Source of the DNA: Kineothrix sp. MB12-C1
GTDB taxonomy: Bacteria; Bacillota; Clostridia; Lachnospirales; Lachnospiraceae
Assembly (NCBI RefSeq): GCF_030863805.1
Contig: NZ_CP132957.1
Location: forward strand, 1,612,001 to 1,676,000
Direction of reading: 5' to 3'
Length of the DNA stretch: 64,000 bases
The translations under genes and the position numbers were made by a program. Position 1 is the first letter of the stretch; each line of letters opens with the position of its first letter. Positions 41,620 to 44,167 of the stretch are shown here, piece after piece. The notes under the pieces are model-generated. The model searched no databases, was not told where the DNA came from, and saw only the letters and a program-made list of their open reading frames with translations.

Positions 41620-43659
41620 ATGAGACCAGAATGGAAAGATTTTGTAGGCGGCAAATGGGAAAGCGAAATCAACGTTCGCGACTTCATCCAGAAAAACTAT
41701 CATCCTTATGATGGCGATGAATCCTTTTTGGCAGAGGCTACACAAAACACAAAAGATTTATGGAACATGGTACTTGAACTTCAGAAGAAAGAGCGCGAAG
41801 CAGGCGGCGTTCTCGATATGGATACAAAGATTGTTTCCACTATCACTTCTCACGGTCCCGGTTACCTGGACAAGGAAAAAGAGACAATTGTCGGCTTCCA
41901 GACAGATAAACCTTTCAAACGTTCCCTTCAGCCTTATGGTGGTATTCGTATGGCAGAAAAGGCTTGCTCCGATAATGGATATGAAGTAGCTCCTGAGATC
42001 AGCGAGTTCTTCTCCACACATAGAAAAACACACAATGCAGGATGCTTCGATGCTTATAATGAAGATATGAGAGCATGCCGTTCTTCCCATATTGTTACAG
42101 GTCTTCCGGATGCTTACGGAAGAGGACGTATTATCGGTGACTACAGACGTATTGCTCTATACGGAATCGATAGATTGATCGAAGATAAACTCGCTCAGAA
42201 GGATTCTACAGGCCGCGTTATGACCGACGAAGTTATTCGTCTGCGCGAAGAACTCTCCGAGCAGATCGTGGCTCTTAAGATGATGAAACAGATGGCCGCT
42301 TCTTATGGATGCGATATCTCCAAGCCATCCACTAACGTAAAAGAAGCAATTCAGGCTATGTATTTCGGATATTTATGTGCAGTAAAAGAGCAAAACGGTG
42401 CGGCTATGTCCCTCGGACGTACTTCCACCTTTATCGATTGCTTCGCAGAAAGAGACTTAGAAAACGGAACCTTCACAGAAGAGCAGATTCAGGAATTCAT
42501 CGATCACTTCATTATGAAATTAAGATGTATAAAATTTGCTCGTACACCTGAATACAATCAGATCTTTGCAGGTGACCCTGTATGGGTAACGGAATCTCTC
42601 GCTGGTGTCGGTGTTGACGGACGTCACCTCGTATCCAGAACCTCTTTCCGTTATTTACACACTCTTACTACTTTAGGAGCTTCTCCCGAGCCGAACTTAA
42701 CTGTTCTCTGGTCTACAAGACTCCCTGAGAACTTCAAAAGATACTGCGCTAAGATGTCTATCCTGACGTCTTCCATTCAGTATGAAAACGATGATCTTAT
42801 GAGAGTAACTCATGCGGACGATTACGGTATTGCATGCTGCGTATCCTCCATGGTAATCGGTAAAGAAATGCAGTTCTTCGGCGCTCGTGCTAACCTTGCA
42901 AAATGTATGCTTTACGCTTTGAACGGCGGCATTGACGAAGTAACGAAGAAACAGGTCGGCCCGAAATACCGCAAGGTAGAAGGCGATGTTCTCGACTTTG
43001 ATGATGTAATGGATAAATTCAAAGATATGATGGAATGGCAGGCAGATGTATATGTTAATACATTGAATGTTATCCACTATATGCATGATAAATACTGCTA
43101 CGAAAGAGCACAGATGGCTCTTCACGATAGAGATGTTAAGCGTTACTTCGCAACAGGTATTGCCGGATTATCTATCGTTGCAGACTCCTTATCCGCTATT
43201 AAATACGCTAAGGTAGAAGTAGTCAGAGATGAAGACGGAATTATCGTTGACTTTAAGACAACCGGCGATTTCCCTAAATACGGTAATGACGATGACCGCG
43301 TAGACGAAATAGCACGTAAGATCGTTTCCACATTTATGACAGCGATCAGAAGACACCATACCTATAGAGACGGTGTTCCTACCATGTCCGTTCTTACGAT
43401 TACTTCTAACGTAACTTACGGTAAGGCAACAGGAAACACACCGGATGGACGCAAGAAAGGTCAGCCTTTCGCTCCCGGTGCTAACCCGATGCACGGACGT
43501 GATACTCACGGTGCTATCGCTTCTCTTGCATCCGTTGCAAAACTTCCATTCGCAGACGCTCAGGACGGTATCTCCAATACCTTCTCCATCATTCCCGGCG
43601 CTCTCGGAAAAGAAGACAGAGTATTCTCCGGAGACATTGATTTGGATTTAAACAGCTAA
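41620..43659 (+). CDS. pflB: Pyruvate formate-lyase core subunit lacking the glycyl-radical domain
   Basis: A 679-residue protein homologous to PflB, which splits pyruvate plus CoA into acetyl-CoA and formate. The thiyl pair is present as Cys406-Cys407 in [20 protein letters not shown], as are [24 protein letters not shown] N-terminal motifs and the C-terminal [20 protein letters not shown]. Unlike the 760-residue Escherichia coli enzyme it ends just before the glycyl-radical segment, at DIDLDLNS. That segment is encoded separately at 43922-44167. AGGAGG lies 12 bases before the ATG. The gene ends cleanly, so this is not a frameshift. Confidence 0.95.
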
Positions 43660-43698
43660 TATAAAAACAACGATAACAAAACGAAGAAAGGGGTTATT

Positions 43699-43920
43699 AT
43701 GGACGAACAAGCAATGATTGATGATATTGTAAAAATGCTGGATGCCGGCACACTCAAAGGCGTTGGCCATATCAACGTGGATGTGGATGCTTCTTTAGAG
43801 GAAGCTAAGAGCGTTCAGACTATGGGATGCACCGATTGCTCCAGAACTCCCCTGGCATGCAGTGTTCCCACATTGGAACAAGGCTTAGATGATTTTTCGA
43901 TAACGAAAGGAGATAAATAA
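43699..43920 (+). CDS. grcA2: Small cysteine-containing paralogue of the glycyl-radical subunit (GrcA2-like)
   Basis: A 73-residue protein between pflB and the glycyl-radical gene. Its first 30 residues resemble those of the next protein ([15 protein letters not shown] against [23 protein letters not shown] against HHLNVNVL). Where the paralogue has RVSGYAV it has a cysteine cluster [14 protein letters not shown] (Cys44, Cys47, Cys54) and no glycyl-radical glycine. AAAGGGG lies upstream of the ATG. I recall similar proteins being labelled GrcA2 in clostridial genomes. A role in electron transfer, redox sensing, or protection of the radical is possible but unproven. Confidence 0.75.
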
Positions 43921-43921
43921 A

Positions 43922-44167
43922 ATGGCAGATATTAGTTCCGCACAGGTTGATAACCTCGTATCATTATTAGATGGATATGCTACACAAGGTGGACACCACC
44001 TGAACGTTAACGTTCTTAACAGAGATACTCTTCTGGATGCTCAGAAACATCCTGAGAATTATCCTCAGCTCACTATCCGCGTATCCGGATATGCAGTTAA
44101 CTTCATTAAGTTAACTCCCGAACAGCAGAATGACGTTATTTCCCGTACATTCCATGAATCCGTGTAA
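43922..44167 (+). CDS. grcA3: Stand-alone glycyl-radical subunit of PFL (GrcA3-like)
   Basis: An 81-residue protein equivalent to the last 75 residues of E. coli PflB and to YfiD/GrcA. It has [31 protein letters not shown] with the radical-bearing Gly56, and [18 protein letters not shown] at the end. The preceding core protein lacks this part, so the active enzyme must be assembled from two chains. The start is one base after the grcA2 stop, with AAAGGAG inside the end of grcA2, so the two are coupled. Confidence 0.93.

Follow-up and report, generated by a model that had tools for sequence, protein, structure and literature searches.

A predicted split pyruvate formate-lyase in Kineothrix sp. 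MB12-C1 and a cysteine element tied to the split

The window analysed here, a 64,000-nucleotide stretch of the Kineothrix sp. MB12-C1 genome (contig NZ_CP132957.1), carries what its sequence indicates is a naturally split pyruvate formate-lyase (PFL), with the predicted activity pyruvate + CoA -> acetyl-CoA + formate. The split is evolved and widespread, appears functional and old, and in cellular genomes it is tied to a cysteine element, which is either a small middle protein encoded between the core and the radical chain (as in the window) or a C-terminal tail on the core. Oxygen destroys PFL, which is a central enzyme in anaerobic fermentation. A two-chain PFL that is a cell's sole PFL would make GrcA-type rescue the normal design and not an emergency repair, and it makes exchange of the radical domain directly testable with purified parts. 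The best explanation of the system as a whole, to which we give a little under an even chance, is a split PFL with an exchangeable radical chain and a dithiol arm that guards or re-reduces the core's cysteine pair. The features concerned are as follows.

41008-41160, minus strand: Clostridiales-1 RNA (RF01699), 113.3 bits, just upstream of the PFL operon
41161-41355, minus strand: DUF1858 gene, adjoining the Clostridiales-1 RNA
41527-41556, plus strand: promoter-like site TTGACG-18-TATAAT upstream of the core, a consensus match only
41620-43659, plus strand: PFL core (PflB without radical domain), 679 aa, from the ORF list; the only PF02901 match in the genome
43699-43920, plus strand: middle cysteine protein, 73 aa, between the core and chain genes; no curated family found
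43922-44167, plus strand: stand-alone glycyl-radical chain (GrcA3 type), 81 aa, radical Gly56 in RVSGYAV
44243-45004, plus strand: PFL activating enzyme (radical SAM), 253 aa, TIGR02493 295.9 bits (cut-off 231.75)

The initial annotation had described a PFL split into a core and a radical chain, and both open reading frames lie where it placed them. Its two-part split stands, but its picture was incomplete, as it missed the third gene between the two, so its interpretation overall is partly supported. The chain gene starts 1 base after the middle-gene stop. Purine stretches resembling ribosome-binding sites precede both the core and the chain (judged by eye), in keeping with the annotation's view that each gene has its own. 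Promoter-like sites are no commoner here than in shuffled sequence (12 found, 10.9 expected), the scans for promoters and terminators gave no clear excess over shuffles, and the RNA scan found nothing near the PFL genes besides the Clostridiales-1 RNA. Between the chain and activase genes, an inverted repeat seen by eye (AAAGGGCC...GGGCCCTTT, 44190-44222) is a possible attenuator.

Against TIGR01255, the single-chain PFL family, the core scores 1081.2 bits (cut-off 994.2), with coverage limited to profile positions 2-665 of 744. It thus stops before the radical domain, as had been claimed, and the part of the profile it lacks is matched by the separate 81-residue chain. Pfam likewise gives PFL-like and the first 50 of 106 Gly_radical positions on the core, and Gly_radical positions 52-106 on the chain. 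With residues counted by hand, core R170, W322, C406-C407 (codons 42835-42840), and R423 align with R176, W333, C418-C419, and R435 of E. coli PFL (PDB 1h16), of which R176, W333, and R435 are presumably catalytic residues; the annotated Cys406-Cys407 pair is therefore in place. An excerpt of PMC12338860 describes the cysteine pair of E. coli PFL as catalytic. The core has the score and the active-site cysteine pair with Arg/Trp expected of a TIGR01255 member, and it has no glycyl-radical domain in the same polypeptide. Its counterpart in Kineothrix alysoides is 94% identical, and Acetatifactor muris is another named relative; both point to Lachnospiraceae as the probable family of the window.

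The chain aligns to 1h16 residues 682-758, so Gly56 (codon 44087-44089) corresponds to Gly734, the radical position that had been assigned to it, and in a fold comparison it follows the PFL fold right to its end. It scores 160.6 bits against NF038360 (GrcA3), above the cut-off of 158, and 101.3 bits against TIGR04365 (the GrcA equivalog), below the cut-off of 170. The core has a median dN/dS of 0.046 (60 sequences), and the chain one of 0.059.

The annotation held that the split would be obligatory unless another intact PFL existed. In this genome (3.94 Mb, one contig, 99.94% complete) there is a single PF02901 core, without a radical domain, and a genome-wide search with PF02901 and PF01228 found no full-length PFL, which bears that view out. 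Since the genome has no other PFL core, the PFL would have to work as two chains; PFOR is also encoded. The short chain resembles GrcA/YfiD proteins (TIGR04365, NF008341, NF038360 GrcA3), which likewise are short, stand alone, and should pair with a PFL core. According to excerpts, a separate GrcA radical chain can serve oxygen-damaged PFL (PMC12338860, PMC8683613), and E. coli GrcA rescues an oxygen-cut PflB that was once complete (PMC12338860). Unlike the partner of E. coli GrcA, however, no complete PFL was found in this genome, so the coexisting complete PflB that defines GrcA as a spare part is absent.

A second stand-alone chain of 79 aa does occur elsewhere in the same genome (L001:1531-1770; C1 about 252.9-253.2 kb). 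Seven such extra, unlinked chains were inspected (loci L001; L276, L102; L278-L280; L277): those of the own genome, G068, and G168 are neighbours of spoIIIAA, those of G110, G140, and G078 lie near a Crp-family regulator, and the G077 chain has neither beside it. Such neighbourhoods hint that the spare chain may be controlled separately.

The same split recurs among relatives. Stand-alone chains (open frames of <150 codons) are present in at least 56 of 150 genera of the family, with one genome per genus and genera counted among the matches listed, to E about 5e-17. The remaining listed family matches are long frames, mostly of about 750 codons (single-chain PFLs or other glycyl radical enzymes), except for G166, which is cut by a contig end. 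Three of the 56 split genera (G115, G147, G157) also have a chain-like match in a 750-770-codon frame, the one in G115 being a single-chain PFL (L259). Across the order (146 genomes), the stand-alone form also occurs in three other families (f8, f11, f22). Across the phylum (249 genomes, 83 with a match at E <=1e-20), it was seen only in two members of the own family (G000, G397). Short-frame matches at contig ends or masked stretches (G554, G510, G166, G374, G219) were not counted as stand-alone.

A wider scan of genome contigs gave 524 stretches matching the pattern, of which 444 encode a relative of the middle protein. Among the best 80 of these 444 loci, the middle gene with a downstream chain is present in all 80 and a core lies upstream in 78, the other two being cut by a contig end. 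The core, middle gene, and chain share one frame in only 10 of the 78, about what independent genes would give. An assembly error or mutation is ruled out, as is chance, because the best 80 of 444 loci share the arrangement and are mostly not in one frame. Together with the low dN/dS, this supports the annotation's judgement that the split is evolved and not mutational.

The middle protein is the part that had gone unseen. It occurs in 23 of 61 genomes searched (own genome included), and these 23 include 15 of the 16 from the own genus. Seven positions are invariant in an alignment of 37 middle proteins (D15, G23, H24, C47, A53, C54, P57), from which two shortened members (G027, G064) were omitted. 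Residues 1-32 are homologous to the start of the radical chain (hhalign 96.2%, E 2.4e-9, 32 columns). The C-half has no glycine loop, carries Cys44, Cys47 (43837-43839), and Cys54 (43858-43860), and ends DC...AC-x-[VI]-P-[TN]-L. No match was found in Pfam or PHROGs, none above cut-off in NCBIfam (the best, GrcA3, gives 15.6 bits over residues 4-29 only), and none at E < 0.1 when its profile was compared with PDB chains.

The middle gene is under purifying selection, with a median dN/dS of 0.104 (196 usable of 600 sampled pairs, from 81 sequences: the best 80 of 444 loci plus the window). Constraint is strongest in the C-half (pN 0.047, pS 0.758), and the linker changes most (pN 0.342). These values bear on the idea that the gene is a decaying radical-domain remnant serving as a translation-coupling leader for the chain, for which the radical-domain origin of its N-half and the single base between its stop and the chain start would speak. 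A remnant would not be expected to keep such a dN/dS or to have its most constrained part in the C-half; moreover, the middle gene is unlinked in two genomes, and where it is absent the core tail carries the same motif. The remnant reading is largely refuted, and we consider it very improbable.

Two groups of orphan small proteins were seen alongside the middle family. One (L073, L074, L076-L080) has an N-half like that of the middle protein and an invariant YHHGRCD[VI]GSP end, and is related to the middle family by profile comparison (97.2%, 65 columns); scans of two members gave nothing above cut-off in Pfam or NCBIfam. The other (L071, L072, L075) has CCN/CCK-x-YG...LDMYTDL.

In cellular genomes, the split state and the cysteine element go together. 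Among the 56 listed split genera, 37 have a middle protein, beside the chain in 35 and elsewhere in the genome in two (G017 and G155; both are rows of profile A2, so E-values against it are circular, and the independent values are 7.3e-16 and 1.6e-6, respectively). The other 19 have no adjacent middle protein, and their core has a C-terminal tail with two or three Cys (e.g., DSMDGCGDMACKVPTLHKGIDDDDNN, RIEECGNQACNIPNIMESIDNE). None of the 94 genera without a listed stand-alone chain has the middle protein, defined as a match over at least 40 profile positions. Seventeen more split genomes, drawn from the family and the order, all have the element (14 as middle proteins, 3 as tails), which makes 73 of 73 split bacterial genomes examined. 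Two loci (L110, L239) proved on re-examination to have a middle gene, and for two more (L070, L082) it lies elsewhere in the genome.

Cysteine counts divide the cores in the same way: tails have none in 39 middle-type cores and two or three in 22 tail-type cores. Because 'tail-type' is defined as having at least two Cys in the tail, what is informative is the lack of any cellular split locus that has neither form. Single-chain linkers have no Cys in 27 of 29 cases, the exceptions being L106 (three) and L260 (one), and eight of eight further cellular single-chain linkers have none. Twelve of 105 sequences were dropped for want of a pattern-found core: eight cellular single-chain PFLs, a phage single-chain PFL with one Cys (L230), and three chains without a core (L101, L102, L243). 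Mutual exclusion of the two forms is nearly clean; the tail-type genome G091, however, also gives a weak match to the middle profile, interrupted by two stops (E 3.4e-4), so the forms may not always exclude each other. A core segment like xFxGD[LI] is also added in 39 of 39 middle-type, 17 of 22 tail-type, and none of 29 single-chain enzymes.

The number and spacing of the cysteines are relevant to whether the element binds a metal (Zn or Fe-S), aiding assembly or sensing oxygen. Other glycyl radical enzymes (hydroxyphenylacetate decarboxylase, benzylsuccinate synthase) have small accessory subunits that bear Cys, which favours this idea, as do the many members with three Cys. However, the 37 aligned middle proteins share only two Cys, 13 of the 22 core tails have just two, the spacing varies from CxC to Cx6C (1 to 6 residues) and so is unlike a fixed metal site, and the middle protein matches no metal-binding family in Pfam or NCBIfam. 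We therefore regard metal binding as improbable. The variable spacing fits a loose dithiol, as do the two shortened members, which end after the first Cys cluster (L027 = G027 and L111 = G064), and it fits other roles too.

The main rival to the dithiol arm takes its cue from the N-half. The middle protein could be a placeholder or inhibitor that occupies the chain's dock, closing the active site and setting the amount of active PFL, with its cysteines acting as a plug or redox switch and not as a reductant; in one variant it could sit permanently on the non-radical subunit of a half-of-sites dimer. Homology to the first half of the chain without a glycine loop is what such a protein might show, and its gene sits just before the chain gene. 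Tail-type enzymes, however, carry the Cys motif but lack the docking half, so the function shared by both forms cannot be to compete for the dock, and one enzyme (L106) combines the Cys motif and a radical domain in a single chain. Half-site reactivity is, in an excerpt of PMC12338860, not supported for E. coli PflB. On balance we think the placeholder role unlikely, while taking it more seriously than metal binding.

The history of the two forms was examined with a core tree of 52 of the 90 core sequences, with tails left out. All split cores fall in one supported group (99/93), the base of which is formed by the phage enzyme, and four single-chain PFLs nest inside this group. Constraining the split rows to one clade was rejected (p-AU 0.0154), and re-fusion is likely given this rejection and the nesting. 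The nested single-chain PFLs are therefore probably re-fused forms by sequence, a second split being a possible alternative. Three of them (L103-L105) have a linker without Cys. The fourth, L106 (G124), has CGCEEVTC between core and radical domain and is probably a re-fusion that retained the Cys element. On a larger, quicker tree, made before L239 was re-labelled, there were at least 10 changes between the middle and tail forms.

We return to the dithiol arm, our preferred reading. The 679-residue core would hold the substrate site and Cys406-Cys407, while the 81-residue chain, activated by the adjacent radical-SAM enzyme, would carry the glycyl radical at Gly56 and dock where the radical domain of an ordinary PFL sits. 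Being a separate polypeptide, a chain cut by oxygen could be exchanged for another. The N-half of the middle protein, derived from the start of the radical domain, would tether the protein to the core, and as long as the core has no intact radical chain, the cysteine pair of the middle protein (C47, C54) would reach the active site, there guarding or re-reducing Cys406-Cys407. In those relatives whose arm is covalently joined as a core tail, the tethering half would be unneeded; the element is found either covalently on the core or with a borrowed half, and most simply read, this half stands in for the covalent link, with the Cys pair as the working end. We infer the docking of the middle protein, the exchange of chains, and the redox role from the parts, their conservation, and their tie to the split, which are observed directly.

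A precedent for such an arm exists in class I ribonucleotide reductase (RNR), the C-terminal dithiol tail of which acts on its own active site. The two share a C-terminal C-x4-C-[KR]-[IV] motif: the core-tail sequences GCGDMACKV, DCPDEACRI, and ACGPDIACKI, for example, look like the end of E. coli NrdA, GCESGACKI. The likeness is a short motif and possibly convergent. PFL is not known to need an external reductant per turnover, so the role here would be repair or protection and not turnover. That a dithiol guards or reduces Cys406-Cys407 when no chain covers them is, in our analysis, a serious possibility that stops somewhat short of even. The more specific claim of a Cys-pair arm, working in cis or in trans to protect or re-reduce the catalytic pair during chain exchange and convergent with the RNR tail, is one we would sooner doubt than accept, although we rank it above the placeholder. 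If the dithiol arm is real, split PFL would be a glycyl radical enzyme that carries its own repair arm for the cysteines of its active site. The Cys element points to a constraint, namely the fate of active-site thiols when the radical domain can leave.

Structure prediction speaks to docking of the chain. A first AlphaFold model, of the core and middle protein joined by reading through one stop (44 rows), was unusably poor (pLDDT 51, pTM 0.47). A second, of the core, middle protein, and chain of a relative (L143; 45 rows including phage PFLs), reached pLDDT 73 and pTM 0.78; its rows included single-chain PFLs, and the docking of the chain was therefore partly built in. The middle protein was unplaced, with pLDDT <50, which counts against the dithiol arm. 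This also matters for the idea that the Cys element is a radical quencher, i.e., an H-atom donor to the glycyl or thiyl radical that safely switches the enzyme off before oxygen arrives. That role would suit a Cys pair which, in a glycyl radical enzyme, goes with the split state, but the middle protein is unplaced, and nothing here separates a quencher from a reductant. We consider quenching improbable, marginally more so than metal binding.

Compared with single-chain PflB (TIGR01255; E. coli PFL, PDB 1h16/2pfl), the window enzyme has the same core sequence, catalytic residues, fold, and adjoining activase gene; it differs in having its radical domain as a separate chain, the xFxGD[LI]-like core segment, and a Cys-arm protein or tail. 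A split PFL as such is not new, since NCBIfam names GrcA3 and two PDB entries titled 'Formate acetyltransferase', 38la and 38lb, are probably split PFL cores. The first ends SLGKED, like phage cores, and the second has about 718 residues after a tag-like N-terminus, its tail beginning ...GECDMCEMKELD. Neither is among the fold-library matches (the library ends 8 April 2026). In the open-licence literature searched, we found no report of a split PFL and no description of the Cys element, and no curated family searched matches the middle protein.

Phages carry split PFLs as well. Those of L220 and of L218/L227 (the core of which lies in two frames) end SLGK[DE]ED and have neither core Cys of this kind nor an adjoining middle-type gene, so the split can exist without the Cys element. 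A viral scan with core alignment A4 found one locus, and one with L228 gave no additional contigs.

Virus-classified contigs (L216-L227, L296, L299, L300) carry stand-alone radical chains, mostly of 77-79 aa, with terminase genes (L216, L217), an endolysin (L221), or NrdD (L218, L223, and by eye L219) as neighbours; the L220 chain adjoins the split core ending SLGKDED, again with no Cys element. These chains suggest that viruses too may profit from spare chains. Single-chain PFLs are found in viral contigs L228-L230, L282-L295, and L297, of which L294 is cut and some are the same contigs. Parts of the system also match two PHROG families labelled 'unknown function': the window's radical chain matches phrog_1209 (3.8e-33), and the phage PFL core L220 matches phrog_21327 (3.5e-252). 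These families could be named as GrcA-like and PFL phage proteins, respectively.
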